Shown here: positions 7,403 through 17,073 of the stretch, piece after piece
How positions within the stretch are numbered: position 1 is the first letter of the stretch
Layout: each line of letters starts with the position of its first letter
Assembly (NCBI RefSeq): GCF_000275825.1
Contig: NZ_JH719942.1
Location: forward strand, 565,600 to 629,599
DNA: 64,000 nucleotides
Direction: 5' to 3'
Source of the DNA: Saprospira grandis DSM 2844
GTDB lineage: Bacteria > Bacteroidota > Bacteroidia > Chitinophagales > Saprospiraceae
The notes under the pieces: generated by a model
Database searches by the model: none
What the model saw: the letters and a program-made list of their open reading frames with translations, nothing else
What the model was told of the DNA's origin: nothing
Position numbers and translations under genes: made by a program

Positions 7403-9652
7403 CTAAGATTTTAATTGTGCTTGAGTTTGTTTGCGCCAGCTCAACATGAGCTTTTTAGAGAGTTCCTCTGCAAAATTGTGCATTTCTCGCATTTCTTGCA
7501 AAGAGGCAAAGCGCAACTGGTGCATTATGAAAATCATGGTTCCGTTCGATTCGATATAGTGCGTGGGCTGGCTCTCCAAAAAGTCGAGCAAATCTGTATC
7601 AAAAAACTCACGCATATCTTTTTCGCTTGGGCCACGCAAAAGGTAGCGATGCGAAAATTGGGGATGGGATGTAAAATTGACATCCTTATAAACCGATAAT
7701 TGCGCTCCTATTTTAGTGGGGCCTTTTTCGGCCTCCAAAACAAAAAGCGGTGCATTAAAGGGAAGGTGCAAAAGAATAATAGTACTATGATAAGCCTGCG
7801 CATTGAAAAGCGCCCCCTGGGCAAAGGTCAAATCACAACTCTCCCATTCAAAAAAGAGTTGGTAGTTCCCCTTAGCCATATTGAGCTTATACTCAATGGG
7901 CCGAGTCTGGAAAAAACTAAACTGCTTGAGCATATTCACCTCCCAACTCAGTTCGGGCCAAAACTGCCCACTTTTCGCCTCTGCCAATTCGCCCAGAGCC
8001 TGCTGCCTTTTGGTCAGCTGTGGCTTTTTATTTTCGGGCAATACATGCATGGCATTGGGGTGACGCGAAGAGGTTTCATGCGCATCTAAACCAATAATAT
8101 CAAAGTTGAGGTTGGGCAAATCATAGCGTTCTACCTCCTCATTGAGGTATTCCAAAACTGCCGAATCTACCAAACGAGTGTTAGAGAGGTCCAAAATCAA
8201 GAGGTCCTTTTTGTTGGCCGAACGCAGGGTGTTTTTTAGCTGTAAAATATTGATGAAGTTGATGACCCCCTTAATGGCCACATAAATCTGTCCATCGGCC
8301 CGCTCTTCTACCTGAATATCGGGGCGCAAAAGGTAGGCCCAAAACTGCTTAAACCCTAAATTAGATTGGCTATACTGCAAGAAAATAGTTACGGCAAAAC
8401 CAAAGGCAATTCCCCAAAGTAAGCCATTAAAAAGAATCATGAGCAGGGTTGAAATAAGGACCACAAACTGCTCTAATCCTAGACGAAAAGTATCCTTAAA
8501 GATTTTTGGAGAAGCCAGTTTATAGGCTGTAAAAATAAGTAGGGTCGCTAGTGCGGCCAAGGGCACGCCCTTAGCAAAAACGGGCAAAAAGAGCACAAAA
8601 ACAACCAACATCAGGGCCTGAAATAAATTGGCCCATTTGGTTTTGGCCCCATAGTACATAGGCACGGCTGTAATCACGGGCAGGCCACCAACACAGGCCG
8701 AAAAAATACTGCTCAACCCACAGGCAAAGAGATCCTTATTCAGGTTGGTTTGTCTGCCCAAAGGATCAATTTTATCCATGGCCTTAGCCGAAATCACCGT
8801 CTCAATAGACACAATCAGGGTGATGGTCACCACAATCTGCCAAAAGTAAAAATGGTCCCACTTCGAGAAGTCCGGATAGACCACATTTTCCCAAATATTC
8901 TCGGGTAAATTGACCAATAAATCGGGCCCCAAAGCAAAGCTTTGGCCCATGGCCTCCACCGTATGCGGCTCATCCAAATTGAGCACATAAGCCATAATCA
9001 TACTAAAACCAATGACCCAAACTGGGCCCGGAATCATCTGTATCCAACGGTTTTTGGTATAGGCCTGCAAAACCAAAAGGGCCACCGAGCCCAAGGTAAT
9101 CAGCCCCACAATAGGGTTTTGGCGCAAAAAGAGCTCTGGAATCTCCTCCAAGCTCTCCATAGGCGTGAGGGCCCAGCTCTCGGCGCCCAAGGCCACCGGC
9201 ATCTGTTTGCCCAAAATGATCAGCCCAATAGCGCCTAAAACACCATAAATAACCGATCTAGAAAATATATCTCCATAACGGCCCAAACGCAGAAGGCCGA
9301 AGAGCATCAAAAACACTCCAGCTACTACCGTGGCCGCTAAAAAATACCGAAATCCCGCCAGGGCATTGCCATCGCCCAAGAGCTCTATACAACTCAGGGT
9401 AACTACAATCAAACTAGCTGCGGGGCCGTTCATGGTCAATTGGCTACTCCGAAAAAGAGTGGCAATCAACCCACCCATAATAGCCGAAAACAAGCCGGCC
9501 ATGGGCGGAACTCCCGAAGCTAGGGCAATGCCTAGGCAAAGCGGTATGGTGACCATAGCCATACTAAATGCAGCCACTCCATCCTCTTGCCAGGAAGGTT
9601 TGGCTTGCAGCCAGTTGCTACGCCACTTTTGCCTAAATTTTTGTCCTATCAT
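7403..9652 (-). CDS. SulP-family anion transporter with STAS domain and a C-terminal extension
   Basis: The protein has 749 aa from the ATG at 9650-9652. The open frame continues 84 codons upstream, but that part is translated repeat DNA, so I place the start at MIGQKFRQKW. The membrane domain begins with DGVAAFSMAMVTIPLCLGIA and GVPPMAGLFSAIMGG and includes FACGLSSIFSACVGGLP, typical of SulP carriers for sulfate or bicarbonate. A STAS domain follows at about 445-535, with LLILDLSNTRLVDSAVL. The last roughly 200 residues are an extra cytoplasmic domain I do not recognise. Substrate cannot be decided from sequence; no carbonic anhydrase gene is adjacent. It is followed directly by the queuosine precursor transporter. 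Confidence 0.85.
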   Translation of the reverse strand: MIGQKFRQKWRSNWLQAKPSWQEDGVAAFSMAMVTIPLCLGIALASGVPPMAGLFSAIMGGLIATLFRSSQLTMNGPAASLIVVTLSCIELLGDGNALAGFRYFLAATVVAGVFLMLFGLLRLGRYGDIFSRSVIYGVLGAIGLIILGKQMPVALGAESWALTPMESLEEIPELFLRQNPIVGLITLGSVALLVLQAYTKNRWIQMIPGPVWVIGFSMIMAYVLNLDEPHTVEAMGQSFALGPDLLVNLPENIWENVVYPDFSKWDHFYFWQIVVTITLIVSIETVISAKAMDKIDPLGRQTNLNKDLFACGLSSIFSACVGGLPVITAVPMYYGAKTKWANLFQALMLVVFVLFLPVFAKGVPLAALATLLIFTAYKLASPKIFKDTFRLGLEQFVVLISTLLMILFNGLLWGIAFGFAVTIFLQYSQSNLGFKQFWAYLLRPDIQVEERADGQIYVAIKGVINFINILQLKNTLRSANKKDLLILDLSNTRLVDSAVLEYLNEEVERYDLPNLNFDIIGLDAHETSSRHPNAMHVLPENKKPQLTKRQQALGELAEAKSGQFWPELSWEVNMLKQFSFFQTRPIEYKLNMAKGNYQLFFEWESCDLTFAQGALFNAQAYHSTIILLHLPFNAPLFVLEAEKGPTKIGAQLSVYKDVNFTSHPQFSHRYLLRGPSEKDMREFFDTDLLDFLESQPTHYIESNGTMIFIMHQLRFASLQEMREMHNFAEELSKKLMLSWRKQTQAQLKS

Positions 9653-9733
9653 ATCTACTTTCCATACTGCGAATAATGCGGTCTTTGTATCAGTTTGCCT
9701 GTTGCAGACTGCTTGTTCTTCTTTTATTTTTTT

Positions 9734-9869
9734 GGGGCTGCCCCTGCGGCCTACGGCCTTGGGTCGGGCTCTGTCGTGGCTCGCAGGTCTGCTCGGCCCT
9801 GCGCAAAATTTCGCTGCGCTCATTTTGCTGGGTCTGCGGCTTCGCCGCACCACTTTCCATCCCTCAGCC
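9734..9869 (+). repeat. Cloverleaf element, copy 3 (subtype II)
   Basis: Starts GGGGCTGCCCC, ends CCCTCAGCC (GGCTG pairs with CAGCC). The third hairpin is GGT-CT-GCGGC-TTC-GCCGC-ACC. It lies upstream of the SulP gene and faces copy 4. The gap 9653-10182 is filled by these two copies. Confidence 0.85.
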
Positions 9870-10017
9870 AATAGCCGCCGCCCTGCCTCTGGCCCAAAAG
9901 CCAAAATATTATTTGGGCTAACTAGCGCCAGAAAATGCTTGGGCTAAAATAGGGAAAGACTGCCCTACTTCGACGACCGAAGGGAGGAGCAGTCTACAGG
10001 GCGCTTTAGCGCCCGCA

Positions 10018-10182: not shown

Positions 10183-11811
10183 TTACTCAAAAATATTGTA
10201 CTTAATCATCAGTACGACATTCTGATCAATTTTGCGTTTATACGAGTGTTCATCCATTAGTTTACGGACCAAATGAATGCCCAATCCTCCAATTTCGCGT
10301 TCTTCAATAGACTTGCTCAAGTCGGGCGGTGTTTTTTGGAAAGGGTTAAAGGGCAGGCCACGGTCCGAAATTTCGAGTAATAGCTTACCGGCTTGCAACT
10401 CTATTTTGATGTCGATGAGTTGGAGGCGGTCTTCATCCTCAAAGCCATACTTAATAATATTAGATAATAGTTCATCGAGGACAATATTGACCTTGAGCAT
10501 AACGGGCATAGGAATGCGGTGCTCATGGGCAAACTCCTCAAAGATAATCATGGCGCGTTGGACCTCAGAGATTTCGTTCTTGATACAGAACTCCTTATCG
10601 TAGGTGGCCACAGCTTGGCCCTTACCTAAGAAACTCAGGGCGATAGCGGTAATATCATCAAACTGTTCTCGTTCTCCCTTAAAGATTTGGGTAGCTTGCA
10701 CGATTCGTTCTACGGTAGGTTGTGCTTCTTCATCTGGATATTGTTTGAGGAGTTGTTGCAGGCGTTCGTCTGAGAATAGTTCATTGGCTTCATTGTGGGC
10801 CTCTGTAATTCCGTCGGTATAGGCAAAAACCAGATCATCGGTTTTGAGTTCTATGGTTGATTCTCGATAAACGAGGCCTTCCATAGCGGCCAAAACGGGG
10901 CCATGCAATTTGCTCAGGCGTTCGAGTTCGCCATTGGCTCGGCGGATATAAGTGGGGTTATGTCCTGCATTAGAATAAATAAACTGCCCAGTTTGCACAT
11001 CGAGAATACCCATAAAGAGGGTCACGAACATAGACTTTGGGTTATCCTTGGCCATTTCGGTATTCACATAAGTGAGAATACTAGCGGTAGATTGCTCTGT
11101 ACTTGCTCTTGATTTGAGTAGGGTTTTACAGACGGCCATCATGAGGGCGGCGGGTACTCCTTTACCCGAAACGTCTCCGACGACAATAGCGAGGTGGCGA
11201 TCATCGAGGAAATAAAAATCGTAGAAATCTCCACCTACTTCTCGGGCGGGGATAAGTTGGGCGAAGACCTCAATTTCGTCTTTATGGGGAAAGGCTGGAA
11301 AAGTCAATGGCAGCATACTGAGTTGGATATCACGGGCTACATTGAGCTCATTTTCCATTCGTGCTTTAGCCAAAGTGGCCTTACGAAGATTTTCTGAAGA
11401 CTCGAGTAATTCTTGGGCTAGTTCCTCCTTAGTTTTGAGGTCGAGGATATTAGAGGCGGCGCGAAATTTCTCTTCAAAATCTTCTCTGAGGCGAAAATGC
11501 TTAATCAGCAAGAGTTCGCTACTCTTATTGGTGGGTTGGATTTCGTCAAAGAAGGCGGCCAAGAGGCGTTCTTCTTTGGCGGATCTTTGCACCTGAACGC
11601 TGAGTGTAATTTTTTCTCCATCGCCTTTGAGCTGCACCTCTACCTCTTGGGGGTAGGGTAATTTGCGCAAATAGGAAGAGATAGAATTACTTAGGGTAGT
11701 CACTGTAATAGCGTCTACAGTTAGCAACTCTGCCACGCTAAAGACTTTATGTCTGAAGTGGTAAATATCTTCTATGGCTTGTATTCGAATATGGCTAGTG
11801 TGCAAGAACAT
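10183..11811 (-). CDS. RsbU-like PP2C phosphatase fused to a C-terminal RsbW-like ATPase domain
   Basis: The protein has 542 aa. Residues 1-110 may be a degenerate HATPase-like region. A coiled segment (about 125-165) precedes a SpoIIE/PP2C domain (about 175-395) with metal-binding motifs EVGGDFYD (D195), GDVSGKGVP (D213) and FDDITAIAL. The last 140 residues form a GHKL ATPase domain with the N-box LDELLSNIIKYGF and the glycine box GGLGIHLVRKLMDE, as in anti-sigma kinases. One chain thus holds the activities that Bacillus splits between RsbU (dephosphorylates RsbV) and RsbW (kinase). It is the last gene of the stressosome operon, 7 bp after the RsbX-like gene. The final target is unknown, as no sigma factor gene is adjacent. 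Confidence 0.87.
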   Translation of the reverse strand: MFLHTSHIRIQAIEDIYHFRHKVFSVAELLTVDAITVTTLSNSISSYLRKLPYPQEVEVQLKGDGEKITLSVQVQRSAKEERLLAAFFDEIQPTNKSSELLLIKHFRLREDFEEKFRAASNILDLKTKEELAQELLESSENLRKATLAKARMENELNVARDIQLSMLPLTFPAFPHKDEIEVFAQLIPAREVGGDFYDFYFLDDRHLAIVVGDVSGKGVPAALMMAVCKTLLKSRASTEQSTASILTYVNTEMAKDNPKSMFVTLFMGILDVQTGQFIYSNAGHNPTYIRRANGELERLSKLHGPVLAAMEGLVYRESTIELKTDDLVFAYTDGITEAHNEANELFSDERLQQLLKQYPDEEAQPTVERIVQATQIFKGEREQFDDITAIALSFLGKGQAVATYDKEFCIKNEISEVQRAMIIFEEFAHEHRIPMPVMLKVNIVLDELLSNIIKYGFEDEDRLQLIDIKIELQAGKLLLEISDRGLPFNPFQKTPPDLSKSIEEREIGGLGIHLVRKLMDEHSYKRKIDQNVVLMIKYNIFE

Positions 11812-11818
11812 AAGCAGG

Positions 11819-12421
11819 TTATTTCAGGAGGTTAAGGTAGACTATAGAAAGATCATCATAGCTACGTCCATAGTTTTCGATAATATCTGATAAGAGTTCG
11901 GCTGTTCCTCTGAGGGGCCAACTCTTACGGTAAAGGGGGCGTCCTTTGATACCATCTGAATACATCATCAGGGCATATCCTGGTTGCAATTGATGCTCAG
12001 TGATTTGGAACTGCCGGGCTCTTTGGCCCAGCACGCCATCCTTAGACACCAGCAATTGTTCTTGTTGGTGTTCGAGAATTCGGACCACGACATTGCCCAG
12101 TCCGATATACTCTAAGCGGCCATCTTCATGCAGGCGGCAAACGGCTAGGGCTGCGCCTCGGCTTGCTTCAAAGTGGCGATGTGCTTTTTGGAGCAATTCG
12201 TCTAGCGGAAGATAGTGATATTTTTTCAGATAGGCTTTTAGCTTATCTGACATTTCTGCGGCTTTTGGGCCATGGCCGAGGCTATCGATTAGGGCTAGGA
12301 AGATAGAATTTTCTTCTCTGTGGAGCAGTACTGCATCTCCACAGCACTGCTCTCCTCGGCAATTTCGCCAAGAATAGTGCAACTGGAAATATTCGTCCTC
12401 ATATCGTCTGACCCAACTCAT
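11819..12421 (-). CDS. RsbX-like PP2C-family phosphatase
   Basis: A 200-aa single SpoIIE/PP2C domain. It has CCGDAVLL, LALIDSLGHGPKA and the C-terminal YDDLSIVYL motif, which are metal-coordinating blocks of the family. Its size matches RsbX, the phosphatase that resets the stressosome by dephosphorylating RsbR and RsbS. The start ATG overlaps the rsbT stop codon in an ATGA arrangement, so translation was coupled to rsbT. Because rsbT is broken upstream by an IS, expression of this gene may now depend on read-through or on a promoter in the IS. The function is inferred from domain and operon position. Confidence 0.82.
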   Translation of the reverse strand: MSWVRRYEDEYFQLHYSWRNCRGEQCCGDAVLLHREENSIFLALIDSLGHGPKAAEMSDKLKAYLKKYHYLPLDELLQKAHRHFEASRGAALAVCRLHEDGRLEYIGLGNVVVRILEHQQEQLLVSKDGVLGQRARQFQITEHQLQPGYALMMYSDGIKGRPLYRKSWPLRGTAELLSDIIENYGRSYDDLSIVYLNLLK

Positions 12422-12636
12422 GATTTATAAATTACGATACTCACCTCGGTTCCCTTACCGAACTCGCTTTTGATGTTAAATTCATCCATCATTCGGCGAA
12501 CGCCAGGAAGGCCAAGGCCTAGGGTTCCGGAGGTACTAAAACTATCTTGCAGAGCGGTTTCAATATCTTCAATTCCTGGTCCTTGATCGATGGCGACCAC
12601 TCTAACGCCTAAGCGGGGGTAAGTTAACTTTTCTAT

Positions 12637-13567
12637 GAGCTTGTTTAAATTTTTTAGTCAGCAGCTAGACTAAGGCAAAAAAAAATGCTGCAAAGCGCTT
12701 ATTATTGTTGATTACGACAAAAACAAAAAAAGGCTTTGCAACATGGTTGTGAATTTATCAAAAGAATTTATTACGGAAAAAATATTAGCATTTTTTCCCG
12801 AAAAAAAATTGGCTCGAAAAACCAAAGCGCCTCTGTGGCAAATTGTTAAAGCGATAATTTATAGGCTTAAAACAGGTTGTCAGTGGAGAGAATTACCGAT
12901 ACAATCTTTTTTTGTACGAAGTTCTAATTTGCTGGCAAACAGTATATTACTACTTCAATAGCTGGTCCGAGTCTGGTATTTGGCAAAAAGTGTGGATCCA
13001 ATTTCTAGCCCATGAAAAATCTTGTTTAGATTTATCTAGTATACAGCTTGACGGAAGTCATACCCCAGCGAAAAGAGGGGGCGAAGCTGTGGGTTATCAG
13101 GGCCGAAAAAAGTCCAAAACCACAAATGCTCTCTTTCTCACAGATAAAAATGGGCTGCCAATCGCTATGTCTCCGCCTTTTGCGGGAAACCATAATGATT
13201 TGTTTGAAATCGAGAGTCATTTCCAAAAAATGCTTGCCGATCTGCAGCTTTCAGACATCTCTCCTGATGGTTTATTTATGAATGCTGATGCAGGGTTTGA
13301 TAGCAAAAAACTTAGAGAAAACTGCCAAAAAATGGGCATTATCCCTAATATTGACCACAACAAAAGAAATAGAAAAAAAGCTTATTATCAAGATATTATA
13401 GATGAGGAACTTTACAAAGAACGCTTTTCTGTTGAGCGAACTAACGCATGGATTGACGCATTCAAAATTTTACTCATTCGTTTTGAAAGAAAAGCCGACA
13501 ACTGGGCGAGTCTACACTATTTAGCCTTTATACTTATTTTCCTAAAACGAAATTTTTAAACAAACTC
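12637..13567 (+). mobile_element. IS5-family insertion sequence (IS427/IS1031-like), 931 bp
   Basis: The ends are 13-bp inverted repeats, GAGCTTGTTTAAA at 12637 and GAGTTTGTTTAAA on the other strand ending at 13567, with one mismatch. They are flanked by a 3-bp direct repeat, TAT (12634-12636 and 13568-13570). The surrounding TCTAT is shared on both sides, so a 5-bp duplication cannot be excluded. The element holds a two-frame transposase and lies antisense to the rsb operon. The AT-rich bases and codon use differ from the neighbouring genes, consistent with recent arrival. Confidence 0.9.
12743..13559 (+). CDS. IS5-family transposase, two frames joined by a -1 frameshift
   Basis: The first frame (12743-12961) encodes the N-terminal part, with WQIVKAIIYRLKTGCQWREL. 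The second frame (stop 13557-13559) continues with WQTVYYYFNSWSESG and the DDE core: IQLDGSHTPAKRGGE, FMNADAGFDS and VERTNAWIDAFKILLIRFER. The frames overlap at seven T residues (12907-12913), where a -1 slip reads TTT TTT TTG TAC and joins the two parts at the expected place. This is the usual layout of the IS427/IS1031 group of IS5. If slippage works, the fused product is about 270 aa and the element may still be active. Confidence 0.88.
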
Positions 13568-13749
13568 TATATTAAAATAGCCTTCTTTGGCATACTTCAA
13601 AATATTATAGCCTAGTTCAGACACAGAAGTACTCAGCTTAGCTACAGCAATAGTAGGAAAGCCTAGATCCTTGAGCAAATTGCTTGTTTTATGGATCGTG
13701 AGATGTAGGTCCATCTCTGTACGAATATGTTGTCTAAAAACGAGTTCCA

Positions 13750-14109
13750 TTATAACTTAGATAAGTATTCTAGGGCCAATTTAAGATCTGCCTCTACGGC
13801 TAGGGCATCAAAGGAAATGTCTAGACCGACAATAGTGGCGGTTAGACCGGGAGAGAGTCCACAAAGTACAGGGACCAGACCTACAATTTTGAGCGTTCGC
13901 ATCAGTTGCAATAGACTTTCTAATTCTTCTGCATCGATGAGCTCCAAACCAGAGAGGTCAAAAGCTACCCCCTTGTAGTTTTGTCCTTGGATCTGATTAA
14001 AGAGACGGTCTTTTAAGGCATTGAGCGCTGGAGCCGTTAGCTCATATTGAATGGGAACAATCAGCTTGTCCTCTGAGCGCTGTACTGGTATTCTATGGAG
14101 TTGTTCCAT
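13750..14109 (-). CDS. rsbS: RsbS-like STAS protein lacking the usual phosphoserine
   Basis: A 119-aa single STAS domain: LIVPIQYELT at the start, AFDLSGLELIDA in the middle and VPVLCGLSPGLTATIVGLDI later align by eye with Bacillus RsbS. RsbS is the structural core of the stressosome that holds RsbT until it is phosphorylated on Ser59 (sequence MIDSFIA). Here the aligned residue is Ala60 (LIDAEEL), so the normal phosphoacceptor is missing. The gene lies between the globin-RsbR and rsbT with single-base overlaps, as in standard RST modules. Identity rests on order, length and fold; the missing Ser means switching would have to differ. Confidence 0.85.
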   Translation of the reverse strand: MEQLHRIPVQRSEDKLIVPIQYELTAPALNALKDRLFNQIQGQNYKGVAFDLSGLELIDAEELESLLQLMRTLKIVGLVPVLCGLSPGLTATIVGLDISFDALAVEADLKLALEYLSKL

Positions 14110-14985
14110 CTATTTTTTAATTTGTCGAAGTTCTAAGCCAGTTAATTTATAGGCCTCATTTAGAGCGGCCTGCATGGTTCCCTCCGTGATAATTTCGTCA
14201 ATTTGCACCCCTAGTTCTACAATAGTTTGGGCTACTGCAGGCGAAATTCCAGATATAATACAGTCACAGCCCATCAGGCGAGAAGCTTTAGTCATTTTAA
14301 TAAGGTGGTTGGCCACGGCGGTATCTACTACAGCAATTCCGCTAATGTCTAAGATAAAGACTTTAGCGGCCATTTGCCCCACCTTATCGAGCATTCTGCT
14401 CATGAGCTCCTGAGCACGTTTAGAGTCAATAATCCCCACCAAAGGCAGCAATAAAATATGCTTGGCAATTTGGGCCACTGGGGTAGACATTTCTCGCAAA
14501 GCTTCATTTTGCTTCTCTAGGCGGTTCTTCATAATTTTGTTGTAGGTATCTACAACAATATAAACATCCATAGAGACTCGTCGGTGATAGGCAGTAGACA
14601 AAGCCACGGTATGCACTCCCAAAGCATTAAATTCGTCTTCAAAGAGTTTATTGAGTATCATGACGGCATCATAATACATATCTAAGGGCAGGCCGATGCG
14701 GGCATGCACCTCGCCTATTCGCACTCGTTTATTCAAGTAGGCGTCATCTAGATCATCTTTCCAGAAAGATCGCCAATGCTCTACTTGCAACTGCTTAACC
14801 TTAGCGACATAATCTTCAGAGTGAAAGTAATCCTTAAACTTTGGGAACAGATAAAGGTGCTCATATAACTTATCAATGATAGCTGGAAGGCGGTCTAGCA
14901 TCTGTTTTGAGGCAGTTTGCAAAAGCGCCAACTGCTCATCTTGGATAAAGAAGCGGTTTTTTAAATTGGAGGCGGTAAGTGACAT
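14110..14985 (-). CDS. rsbR: RsbR paralogue with an N-terminal globin sensor domain
   Basis: The protein has 291 aa. Residues about 10-155 look like a globin/protoglobin sensor: YLFPKFKDYF, QVEHWRSFWKDD and RIGEVHARIGLP, where H94 is the likely haem-binding proximal histidine. Residues about 170-285 form the STAS domain that assembles into the stressosome core. By alignment to Bacillus RsbR, S188 (GIIDSKRA) matches Thr171 and T222 (AVVDTAVANH) matches Thr205, the two RsbT target sites, with the same spacing of 34. The gene directly abuts rsbS. A haem-bound gas or redox signal is the natural inference; some RsbR globin domains do not bind haem, so this needs testing. Confidence 0.88.
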   Translation of the reverse strand: MSLTASNLKNRFFIQDEQLALLQTASKQMLDRLPAIIDKLYEHLYLFPKFKDYFHSEDYVAKVKQLQVEHWRSFWKDDLDDAYLNKRVRIGEVHARIGLPLDMYYDAVMILNKLFEDEFNALGVHTVALSTAYHRRVSMDVYIVVDTYNKIMKNRLEKQNEALREMSTPVAQIAKHILLLPLVGIIDSKRAQELMSRMLDKVGQMAAKVFILDISGIAVVDTAVANHLIKMTKASRLMGCDCIISGISPAVAQTIVELGVQIDEIITEGTMQAALNEAYKLTGLELRQIKK

Positions 14986-15046: not shown

Positions 15047-15379
15047 TTAAGCGAATGCAGCCAAGGCTGCATCTAGGTCAGGCTGTACATCCATGATGCT
15101 GCTAAAGCCCGACATATCGAGGATCTCTGTAACTACCTCATTGGCATTACAAATTTTGAGTGAGCCTCCTAGGCCCAACATTTTTTTGGCTGTAGCCAAA
15201 AATACACGTAGGCCTGCACTACTTACAAATTTGGTTTGGTTCAAATTGAAGATCACTTTGCTATGTGCATTGATATGTTTGTTAATTTCGGTCTCGGCAA
15301 AGCTGGCGGTTCCTGTATCTAGGCTGCCTTCAAAGCTAAGGACCAAAATGTCATTTTTTGTGGTAACGTGAACTTGCAT
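15047..15379 (-). CDS. RsbV/SpoIIAA-like anti-sigma factor antagonist
   Basis: A 110-aa STAS protein. The segment NLNQTKFVSSAGLRVFL carries the conserved phosphorylatable serine just before AGL (S54), as in RsbV. Such proteins bind and neutralise an anti-sigma kinase when unphosphorylated. The fused RsbU-HATPase protein at the end of the same cluster provides both a matching phosphatase and a kinase domain. It is the first gene of the rsb cluster, 61 bp upstream of globin-rsbR. The 61-bp gap could hold a separate ribosome entry but shows no hairpin terminator. Confidence 0.87.
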   Translation of the reverse strand: MQVHVTTKNDILVLSFEGSLDTGTASFAETEINKHINAHSKVIFNLNQTKFVSSAGLRVFLATAKKMLGLGGSLKICNANEVVTEILDMSGFSSIMDVQPDLDAALAAFA

Positions 15380-15440: not shown

Positions 15441-15968
15441 CTAGCGATCCAACAAACCCAAACGATCGGCAAAATGCCAAAGCTCAGCTCTGCTCTTTAT
15501 GCCCAGCTTTTTGCGCAATTGCTTAAGCTGAGTTTTTACGGTAGCTTCTTTACGGGCCGAAAGTGCAGCAATTTCTTTTGCTGTCTTCCCTTCTACCCAA
15601 TATAATAACAATTCTCTTTCTCTTGCACTTAATTGGGCATATTTATCTGTATCGGCCTGTTTGACTAGCTCTTGCTCGAGCATTTCTTTAGAAAACTGAT
15701 AGGCGCCTAAGGGGCCAAACTGTATAGCACGGATAGACAGTTGCCCTGTATCGGCCTGATAATGGGCCAAATCTAGTTGCCAGTTCCCCTCGGTCTTGCG
15801 CTGGCACAACTGCCAATGCTCCCCTCCTTCTTCTTGATTGAATACAGGCTGACAGCCGCCCTCCCAGGGACCTTCTTTGGATCCAGTTTGCAAGCGACAG
15901 AGCAGCGATTGCTGTCCACAAACTAAAGGAGCAAATAAACAGTATTTAACGGGCTCTTTTTCTTGCAT
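15441..15968 (-). CDS. LuxR/GerE-type transcriptional regulator (short)
   Basis: About 175 aa from the ATG at 15966-15968; a longer frame starts inside the upstream gene and is less likely. The C-terminal 65 residues form a GerE helix-turn-helix: LSARERELLLYWVEGKTAKE, then ATVKTQLKQLRKKLGIKSR. The N-terminal 110 residues have no recognisable sensor motif. It follows the next LuxR-type gene by 4 bp, so the two are co-transcribed and may be a diverged pair. It lies upstream of the stressosome cluster in the same direction; a functional link is possible but not shown. Confidence 0.8.
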   Translation of the reverse strand: MQEKEPVKYCLFAPLVCGQQSLLCRLQTGSKEGPWEGGCQPVFNQEEGGEHWQLCQRKTEGNWQLDLAHYQADTGQLSIRAIQFGPLGAYQFSKEMLEQELVKQADTDKYAQLSARERELLLYWVEGKTAKEIAALSARKEATVKTQLKQLRKKLGIKSRAELWHFADRLGLLDR

Positions 15969-15972
15969 TAGC

Positions 15973-16686
15973 CTATTTTTTAGGGTAAATCTCAAAAGCT
16001 TGTATAAAGCGCATAAACTCATGAAAACTGCTAAAAGGCAGCTTGGCCCTCAAATTACTGAGGTGTTGCTTGACCGTTTCGCTAGAGCAAGTTAGTAGGG
16101 CTGCGGTTTGCTGCATACTTTTGCCCTCGCCCCAATGCGCCAAGACCTCTAGTTCTCTAGCTGATAAGCGCCGATAATGCTCATAGTACCGCAGCTGCAA
16201 ACTGCTAATTCGGAGCTGTTTTTTTAGCCGCTGGCTCCAAATGCCCGCCTCATTGACAGGGACACTGAGCGAAAACACCCAATTGCCGTCTTCAGAGGGC
16301 TGATGAGAGGCCAAACGCAGCTGGTACTCTTTGGTCCAAGCAGAGCGCATCTTCACCAATAGCTGATAAGGATTTAATTCCTTTTTCCAGTCTCGCCAAC
16401 GCTGCAGCCGAAGATAATGCGCCAAGCTACTCGGCTCTACAAAACTAAGAAAACGCTCTCGGCCAAAACTGACTAAATCTTCTTCTTCCGCTACGCCATA
16501 AAACTGCCTAAAACTTTCATTGACATAGGCAAAATCAAAGCGGCGGACATGCATAACAGCCACCGATAAAGGGCTGGGCAGCCCTTCAAAATAGCTACTT
16601 AAGCGCTCTAAGTCTCTGCTTAAGCACCAAGTATGCAGCTCTAATAAAAGTTGTTGCTCTTGCTCTGTATGTTGTTTGATGTTCAT
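15973..16686 (-). CDS. PAS-containing LuxR/GerE-type transcriptional regulator
   Basis: The protein has 237 aa. Residues about 35-145 resemble a PAS fold (FDFAYVNESFRQFYG, then FLSFVEPSSLAHYL). The C-terminus is a GerE helix-turn-helix: LSARELEVLAHWGEGKSMQQ with SSETVKQHLSNLRAKL. It probably binds DNA as a dimer and responds to an intracellular cue. It is the first gene of a two-gene unit with the shorter LuxR-type protein. The region upstream has a C5-T4-G5 hairpin and a cloverleaf element, so its promoter lies within about 30-60 bp of the start. Confidence 0.82.
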   Translation of the reverse strand: MNIKQHTEQEQQLLLELHTWCLSRDLERLSSYFEGLPSPLSVAVMHVRRFDFAYVNESFRQFYGVAEEEDLVSFGRERFLSFVEPSSLAHYLRLQRWRDWKKELNPYQLLVKMRSAWTKEYQLRLASHQPSEDGNWVFSLSVPVNEAGIWSQRLKKQLRISSLQLRYYEHYRRLSARELEVLAHWGEGKSMQQTAALLTCSSETVKQHLSNLRAKLPFSSFHEFMRFIQAFEIYPKK

Positions 16687-16741
16687 ATTTTGGTCTTTGC
16701 GCTTTAATGTAGGTCTTTATTTATTTTTTTTAGTAAAAACG

Positions 16742-16765
16742 CCCCCCTTTTGGGGGATTTTTCTC
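16742..16765. terminator. CCCCCC-TTTT-GGGGG hairpin
   Basis: A short G/C hairpin with T-rich flanks in both directions lies between the PAS-LuxR gene start and the copy 5 element. It could end transcripts from the cysteine desulfurase gene. Confidence 0.5.
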
Positions 16766-16833
16766 TCAAAATAAATGCTCCTCCCTTCGACGACCAAAGG
16801 GAGGAGCAGCTTGCAGGGCGCAAAGCGCCCGCA

Positions 16834-16947
16834 GGCCTAGCGATGTGGAGGGGTGGCCAAAGGCCAGACCGAGCCAGCTTGCTGGCGAAGGGCCGAGCGA
16901 ATAGCGAGCCCCAAAACGTAGCGCCGCAGCTTTGCTGCGGAGGCCCC
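16834..16947 (-). repeat. Cloverleaf element, copy 5 (subtype I, variant core)
   Basis: Minus-strand ends are GGGGCCTCC and ATCGCTAGGCC. The core is the variant CTCGCTATTCGCTCGGCCC. The second hairpin is GCCAGC-AA-GCTGGC. The gap 16687-17073 also holds flanking copies of the TTCGACGACC module at 16787-16806, 16991-17010 and 17039-17060. Confidence 0.82.
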
Positions 16948-17073
16948 AAAAAATCAGCCAGCCCCGACAACCAGCCTCGAAGAGGCGCCAGTTCGATGAC
17001 CAACGGGAATAAACGACAACAAGCCCTTTAGGGCGCAGTTCGACGACCGAAGGGAGTAACGCCCCAAAAAACA

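Follow-up and report, generated by a model that had tools for sequence, protein, structure and literature searches.

Among the systems described so far, the haem-RsbR stressosomes of Vibrio stand closest to the locus analysed here. For V. brasiliensis the excerpted text of PMC4976288 reports that the kinase RsbT is activated by unliganded Fe(II) RsbR but not by oxygen-bound RsbR. The same work located phosphate on RsbT and, within RsbR, on S178 and T182; none was mapped to RsbS. According to Jia et al. the phosphosites of B. subtilis are not conserved in the V. brasiliensis RsbS, which showed a low thiophosphate transfer in vitro, yet no phosphopeptide (PMC4976288, excerpts). Since this transfer occurred without the conserved sites, another RsbS residue is possibly used. 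Haem-RsbR modules of the RSTX type are known in Bacteroidetes (excerpts of PMC9237108), and a 2015 paper citing the genome study of Saprospira grandis str. Lewin states that S. grandis RsbR homologues keep haem and bind oxygen (PMC4476040, as excerpted).

In the canonical stressosomes of B. subtilis and Listeria a serine of RsbS (S59 and S56, respectively) is tied to the release of RsbT (excerpts of PMC3944199 and PMC12154155). A Listeria preprint describes that phosphorylation of S56 destabilises the shell such that RsbT is released (PMC12154155, in part). In B. subtilis an S59A exchange in RsbS left 13% of the normal response when all four RsbR were present and about 60% under strong stress with RsbRA alone; the excerpted source also raises the idea that RsbR-only signalling is older and that RsbS phosphorylation was a later evolutionary addition (PMC3944199).

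We analysed a window of 64,000 nucleotides from the genome of S. grandis DSM 2844, in which an earlier note had proposed a globin-type sensor feeding a stressosome. The features of the operon are collected in Table 1. On one strand two LuxR-type regulators are followed by an RsbV-like STAS protein, rsbR, rsbS, rsbT, an RsbX-like phosphatase and an RsbU-RsbW fusion. The adjacency rsbR-rsbS-rsbT-rsbX is thus present, with rsbT in place but split. This operon order is common to three well-assembled congeners (loci L068 and L070 by translation, L069 by ORF positions and lengths), and in L068 and L070 it also includes both LuxR/GerE-type genes. The DNA of the operon region is 91–95% identical to that of S. 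grandis str. Lewin (G001, NC_016940.1), whose globin-coupled rsbR genes include an orthologous operon with a whole rsbT and an RsbR that is 93% identical. The abstract of the Lewin genome study by Saw et al. (2012) reportedly mentions multiple sensor-globin-coupled rsbR genes. A haem-RsbR stressosome is therefore already known, in Saprospira too, and the window gene adds another member.

Table 1. Features of the stressosome operon in the window (positions from the first letter of the window).
Feature	Position	Strand	Description and basis
Second LuxR/GerE-type DNA-binding protein	15973..16686	(-)	upstream; operon membership from gene order only
LuxR/GerE-type DNA-binding protein	15441..16022	(-)	upstream; operon membership from gene order only
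Stand-alone STAS protein	15047..15379	(-)	RsbV/SpoIIAA-like anti-anti-sigma factor; TIGR00377
rsbR	14110..14985	(-)	ATG start, 291 aa; ORF call, Pfam, structure matches, fold model
Domains of the rsbR product			protoglobin/globin-coupled-sensor domain, residues ~1-150 (Y41, H94); linker helix (S167); STAS (S188, T222)
rsbS	13750..14109	(-)	single STAS protein, 119 aa; Ala60 at canonical phospho-Ser position, Glu62 at +2
rsbT 5' part	13568..13750	(-)	kinase N-terminal half; cut by insertion element
IS5-type insertion element, 931 bp	12637..13567	(+)	18-nt terminal inverted repeats (83% complementary); between rsbS and rsbX
rsbT 3' part	12418..12636	(-)	C-terminal half; HATPase_c match
rsbX-like phosphatase	11819..12421	(-)	single-domain SpoIIE/PP2C phosphatase, 200 aa; Pfam
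RsbU-RsbW fusion	10183..11811	(-)	SpoIIE phosphatase 203-393, RsbW/SpoIIAB-type HATPase 413-537; downstream of rsbX

The RsbU-RsbW fusion is probably the output protein, acting on the RsbV-like STAS protein. Its N-terminal region had no Pfam match; an RsbT-like or RsbU_N-type N-terminus was considered and rejected, since BLASTP aligned it with RsbT in a single stretch of 39 residues (E 0.015), which was too weak. No sigma factor was found by Pfam among the window genes scanned. Downstream the operon is adjoined by a SulP-type transporter (7403-9904, minus strand) whose C-terminus weakly matches STAS (E 0.009); such a neighbour is present in L068 and L070 too. A GC-rich repeat family, mostly intergenic, runs through the window. 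One copy lies at 16701-17050, and matches with 75–95% identity to parts of one copy lie near 2667, 9968, 20708, 27481, 32517, 42231, 45591, 48323, 57157 and 62222.

The rsbR product carries the protoglobin N-terminus that the earlier note had read from the letters. The Protoglobin profile PF11563 covers residues 9-149 (E 7.1e-23, 81.8 bits at a Pfam cut-off of 25) and the STAS profile residues 169-263 (E 2.7e-14). The candidate proximal histidine of the note, H94, lies within RIGEVHARIGLPLDMYYDA (proximal-His motif IGEVHARIGLP) and aligns with the histidine of GEIHARVGLPL in V. vulnificus RsbR (PDB 7o0i). Both STAS phosphosites named there are present as well, S188 in the context GIIDSKRAQ and T222 in VVDTAVANH, at a spacing of 34. 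The closest solved structure is the V. vulnificus stressosome RsbR 7o0i (residues 14-289, E 1.7e-75), followed by the STAS half of Listeria RsbR; the N-domain also matched HemAT and the Geobacter globin-coupled sensor. A fold prediction agreed with a globin: in an AlphaFold2 model of moderate quality (pLDDT 76, pTM 0.54, 8 sequences) the N-domain takes on a sensor-globin fold, with Z-scores of 20.2 to 8h17 (rmsd 1.8, 152 aligned), 19.8 to 2w31 and 17.9 to HemAT 1or4. Such a domain would bind haem b via H94.

A genome scan for haem-type modules with two seed patterns gave 161 confirmed matches, of which the best 80, corresponding to 78 loci, were used; this set is thereby skewed towards the query. 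Among the 94 RsbR-like ORFs of these loci H94 was kept in 75, Tyr41 in 78, S188 in 87, T222 in 89 and S167 in 91. The conservation of T222 is partly by construction because this residue is inside the seed pattern [VM]DTAVANH, while H94, Y41 and S188 lie outside both patterns.

RsbR of the V. vulnificus system (7o0i; excerpts of PMC9237108) has its domains in the same order and is similar over nearly the whole length; the proximal histidine, the two STAS phosphosites, the RSTX gene order and an RsbS without serine at the canonical position are shared as well. The locus differs in the number of sensors, with no obvious RsbR paralogues there in the excerpted text and 15 RsbR here, in the output, which is two-component there and an RsbU-RsbW fusion with an RsbV-like STAS gene here, and in the interrupted rsbT. 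The oxygen-sensing system of V. brasiliensis (PMC4976288, excerpts) is alike in that its RsbR is a haem globin having both the proximal His and the distal Tyr, and in the RsbS that does not conserve the B. subtilis phosphosites. It was shown biochemically, whereas ours is predicted, and the paralogue family and the broken kinase gene set the Saprospira locus apart. B. subtilis and Listeria share with it the STAS shell proteins, an RsbT-type kinase, RsbX, an RsbU-type phosphatase and RsbW- and RsbV-type partners, and B. subtilis also has several RsbR paralogues. Their RsbR globin is, however, of the non-haem type, while H94 and the pocket residues are present here; their RsbS switch serine is an alanine in the window; and their operon includes the SigB gene. 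Thus the two hallmarks of the canonical stressosome, the RsbS phospho-serine and a non-haem operon RsbR, are both absent, and the hallmark of the Vibrio type, a haem-type globin RsbR in an RSTX module, is present.

The RsbS of the window aligns gap-free with its counterparts in B. subtilis, Moorella and V. vulnificus. Where B. subtilis and Moorella have the phospho-serine (DSF), the window protein has Ala60 and V. vulnificus Gly. For a wider comparison the 78 ORFs directly downstream of RsbR-like ORFs were taken; 68 matched RsbS at a lenient threshold (phmmer E ≤10) and the 10 others were not counted. As controls served 13 modules from 394 other genomes of the phylum of the window, in which RsbR matched in the STAS part only and the N-domain neither matched the globin part nor contained its His motif; at the cut-off of this search (E 1e-20) weaker relatives may be missed. 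Within the best 80 of 161 matches the canonical column held Ser/Thr in only 7 of 68 haem-type RsbS, with 17 different residues occurring there, versus Ser in all 13 controls. The +2 column was Asp/Glu in 63 of 68 versus 0 of 13. These 68 proteins come from 15 named phyla, with three unplaced. In the same set of best matches RsbR had both S188 and T222 in 68/68 pairs (T222 being within a seed pattern) and H94 in 67/68, the remaining one being an alignment gap.

Fisher's test on the canonical column gave 2e-10 for 67 pairs, with the pair gapped at H94 left out, and 2e-11 for all 68; the sequences are not independent, as the haem-type set was gathered by similarity to a haem RsbR. Reduced to representatives below 60% identity, 45 haem-type RsbS (6 with Ser/Thr) stood against 4 controls (all Ser). 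On the RsbS tree the Ser/Thr state needs 7 changes and was therefore regained or retained in scattered lineages. Other columns were rich in Ser/Thr in the haem-type RsbS from the best 80 of 161 matches, namely 53 (99%), 19 (81%) and 25 (66%), of which the window protein has S53 and T25. Columns 53 and 19 were also Ser/Thr in 13/13 controls, and Ser53 may be structural. Five of the 13 control modules (L188-L192) had Pro and Ser/Glu at the RsbR columns and kept the RsbS serine; this would be the reverse of the haem-type pattern, in an alignment that is less sure.

Far from being a single odd paralogue, the window gene is the copy located in the operon among a larger RsbR family. This genome contains 15 RsbR genes, 4 of them with H94, and one RsbS, and the congeners have 15 (G001), 18 (G002) and 16 (G005) RsbR. 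RsbR matches were absent from 36 of 40 relatives, including two drafts of the same genus (63% and 90% completeness). The 64 RsbR of the four Saprospira genomes comprise 16 with His at column 94, 44 with Phe, Leu, Tyr or Ile, and 4 short ones (211 aa, without the globin domain) that were counted as neither. The short type is represented by L018:1710-2345, with Ala at the first phosphosite, and occurs in all four RsbR-bearing Saprospira genomes. Y41, W71, F74, R87, I90, G91 and H94 are identical in 16/16 His-containing RsbR. Of these residues, F74, R87, I90 and G91 are variable among the 44 proteins that lack the His. Both STAS phosphosites are Ser/Thr in 44/44 RsbR without His but in only 10/16 with His; those that lost them are of the 4210982 and 367704 types. 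The phosphosite columns of the His-containing L010:1983-2873 and L011:2205-3050 read K/L and H/E. Because these sites are lost, the two putative haem sensors should not be phosphorylatable there by RsbT. A copy of the insertion element ends near L010:1983-2873.

In this genome ten paralogues with Phe or Leu at column 94 keep the phosphosites. Eight of these ten matched the Protoglobin profile at E ≤1e-3, six of them above the curated cut-off, and those at C2:70867 and 71817 gave no match to it. One of the paralogues without His, L013:3761-4624, was modelled as a globin fold (pLDDT 85) with a Z-score of 17.1 to the globin domain of AfGcHK. A further Protoglobin match at C2:1813304 was rejected as a stressosome sensor, since its sequence reads as that of a flavohaemoglobin. 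As to a second RsbS, a 116-aa STAS protein at C2:3239890 was unlike RsbS (E 0.11), and among the ORFs at the 21 STAS places of the genome only the window RsbS was both short and RsbS-like.

The history of the family was followed in quick maximum-likelihood trees. After removal of near-identical sequences and of those shorter than 240 or longer than 420 aa, 81 RsbR remained, 31 from Saprospira and 50 others. The 31 Saprospira proteins, from two genomes, formed one group (SH-aLRT 99) amid otherwise His-containing proteins, and inside it 22 proteins without His formed one group (94). Two of the 50 non-Saprospira rows were without His, on very long branches. A tree of the STAS domain only, from which two very long rows of the RsbR tree were left out, grouped the 22 again (88) and placed 13 non-haem RsbR of the phylum apart (97). 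These trees cover G000 (the present genome) and G002, contain no Bacillus sequences and have several long branches; the residue counts cover all four Saprospira genomes. The simplest history is that a haem-RsbR ancestor was duplicated, that one copy lost its haem ligand a single time, and that the non-haem globin sensors radiated from it.

Taking RsbS and the paralogues together, we see an even chance that haem-globin stressosomes as a class work without an RsbS phospho-switch. Over the 15 named phyla almost any residue would stand in for the serine, the +2 position would be near-fixed as acidic and the RsbR sites retained, and signalling would run through RsbR only, either as the older mechanism or by secondary loss. 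Saprospira would then have evolved non-haem sensors from a haem sensor independently of Bacillus, all sharing one RsbS.

Within the operon the two halves of rsbT lie on either side of the IS5-type element. Its transposase matched transpos_IS5_3 (NCBIfam) with E 1.5e-31 and 109.9 bits, just below the curated threshold of 110, and is in two frames in this copy (stop-to-stop 12674-12961 and 12858-13559). The element is flanked by a 3-bp target duplication, TAT, at 12634-12636 and 13568-13570. It has 38 matches in the genome. Most copies checked were 930 bp long, 1 bp shorter than that in rsbT, and in the copy L035:4590-5530 the transposase is one 271-aa ORF. In the congeners rsbT is uninterrupted (132 aa in L068, 132 aa in L069 by ORF position and length, 131 aa in L070). 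Searches of the present genome with the Lewin RsbT protein and HATPase_c_2 found no second whole rsbT, but only the split copy and a second C-terminal half. A HATPase match at C2:1782240 is instead a separate RsbW-like protein of 155 aa. Part of rsbX, the rsbT C-terminal half and the element recur at C2:1855013-1856498 (L035:10014-11499), with 99.7% identity over 1489 columns. In our reading the true insertion is that of the window locus, and this additional copy is a misjoin or an IS-mediated recombinant. Another anti-anti-sigma (STAS) gene, C2:3314074-3314451 (L019:2575-2892, minus strand), is apparently truncated by the same element; that copy lies at C2:3314370-3315299 with a TGT duplication, and the ORF stops inside the STAS match.

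The uninterrupted RsbT gene of a working stressosome was thus not found in this genome. Of the proposed globin sensor feeding a stressosome, the globin-STAS RsbR in an rsbRSTX module is supported; a working output in this genome is not, and since the only rsbT found is interrupted the oxygen readout is probably broken. The shell here is likely without a kinase, and expression of the genes downstream of the element is perhaps low.

Taken as a whole, we consider it probable that the operon encodes a haem-type (Vibrio-type) oxygen-sensing stressosome with the switch away from the canonical RsbS site, an enlarged RsbR set and an rsbT split by an insertion element. The rsbR product would be the core sensor, with haem b held by H94 and Y41 (B10) facing the bound ligand, such that the globin domain reports oxygen. 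As in V. brasiliensis, oxygen-bound RsbR would keep RsbT quiet; upon oxygen loss RsbT would phosphorylate RsbR and, once released from the STAS shell, act on the RsbU-RsbW fusion, and RsbX would reset the complex. The direction of signalling is borrowed from the Vibrio RsbR, at about 40% identity, and may differ here. Because RsbS has Ala60, the switch would lie in RsbR or be independent of phosphorylation, unlike the RsbS site of Bacillus and Listeria; the haem-type class fits a switch in RsbR.

Candidate phosphosites of RsbR are S167, S188 and T222. In the alignment S178 of V. brasiliensis corresponds to S167 and T182 to Ala171. In the V. vulnificus model of Heinz et al. RsbT has easy access to the counterpart of T222 alone; those of S188 and of S178/T182 (the S167 site) are buried or out of reach (PMC9237108, excerpts). 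This makes T222 the best single candidate and weakens S167 and S188. In Saprospira the module would have been enlarged to 15–18 RsbR sharing one RsbS in presumably mixed shells, most of them descending from a single copy in which the haem ligand was lost and the phosphosites were kept. With rsbT split, the shell of the present strain would probably still form and bind oxygen, with no kinase to release.

Several parts of this picture could be read differently. The interruption of rsbT could be an assembly artefact in which a repeated element was misplaced, the strain having a whole rsbT and a working stressosome. The 20 full-length copies of the element with at least 99% identity would allow for this, and the second copy of rsbX part, rsbT C-half and element at C2:1855 kb begins beside a run of N, which suggests that the assembly struggled there. 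An artefact would, however, not be expected to leave matching TAT duplications on both sides of the window copy. Perfect 3-bp duplications also flank 10 of the 14 distinct full-length copies that were inspected; the second locus has no 3-bp duplication and is bordered by rsbT on just one side. We regard an artefact as quite improbable. Slightly less probable still is that the paralogues without His were acquired separately as Bacillus-type non-haem RsbR and did not radiate locally. Bacillus RsbR are non-haem globins as well (PMC4976288, excerpts), and the quick trees with their long branches leave Bacillus out; against separate acquisitions speak the single Saprospira group of 31 RsbR with an N-domain, the single group of 22 within it, and the recovery of the latter by the STAS domain, with the 13 non-haem controls apart.

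For RsbS, a phospho-switch at a different residue, in which case the lost serine would mean little, is doubtful but has an appreciable chance. The weak in vitro thiophosphorylation of V. brasiliensis RsbS without the Bacillus sites (PMC4976288, excerpts) and the common Ser/Thr at columns 53, 19 and 25, with S53 and T25 in the window protein, would suit it. Columns 53 and 19 look structural, though, given their presence in all controls and the position of 53 in a DxS strand motif, and the V. brasiliensis RsbS yielded no phosphopeptide. As to the ligand, the haem globin might sense NO, CO, haem itself or the redox state, or only store haem, which we consider unlikely. For V. brasiliensis an intermediate kinase activity is described with NO and with CO, and Fe(III) had the same effect as the oxy form; the slow auto-oxidation in the same excerpts argues against a redox role (PMC4976288). 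All 16 His-containing paralogues have the distal Tyr that one would expect to stabilise oxygen. From the haem-based oxygen or redox sensing put forward in the earlier note, oxygen is thus likely the signal, as a best guess by homology with the Vibrio RsbR proteins, for which haem binding has been demonstrated (PMC4976288, PMC9237108), and redox is the less likely part.

In the open-access literature we found no class-wide survey of the RsbS serine and no report of its class-wide loss with an acidic +2 residue, of a His-lacking radiation from a single loss in Saprospira, or of an insertion element in rsbT, including the interrupted rsbT of this strain. Signalling without RsbS phosphorylation has been an open question since B. 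subtilis mutants showed the serine to be non-essential (excerpts of PMC3944199). Because nature seems to have assembled, in the haem-type class, a set of RsbS proteins that lack the serine, such signalling could be tested on native Saprospira proteins. The genome with the interrupted rsbT would offer a natural kinase-less relative for comparison with the strains that keep rsbT. Globin sensors with and without the haem-ligating histidine occur together in Saprospira, apparently from one ancestor, and may thereby bear on what a globin senses once its haem is gone.
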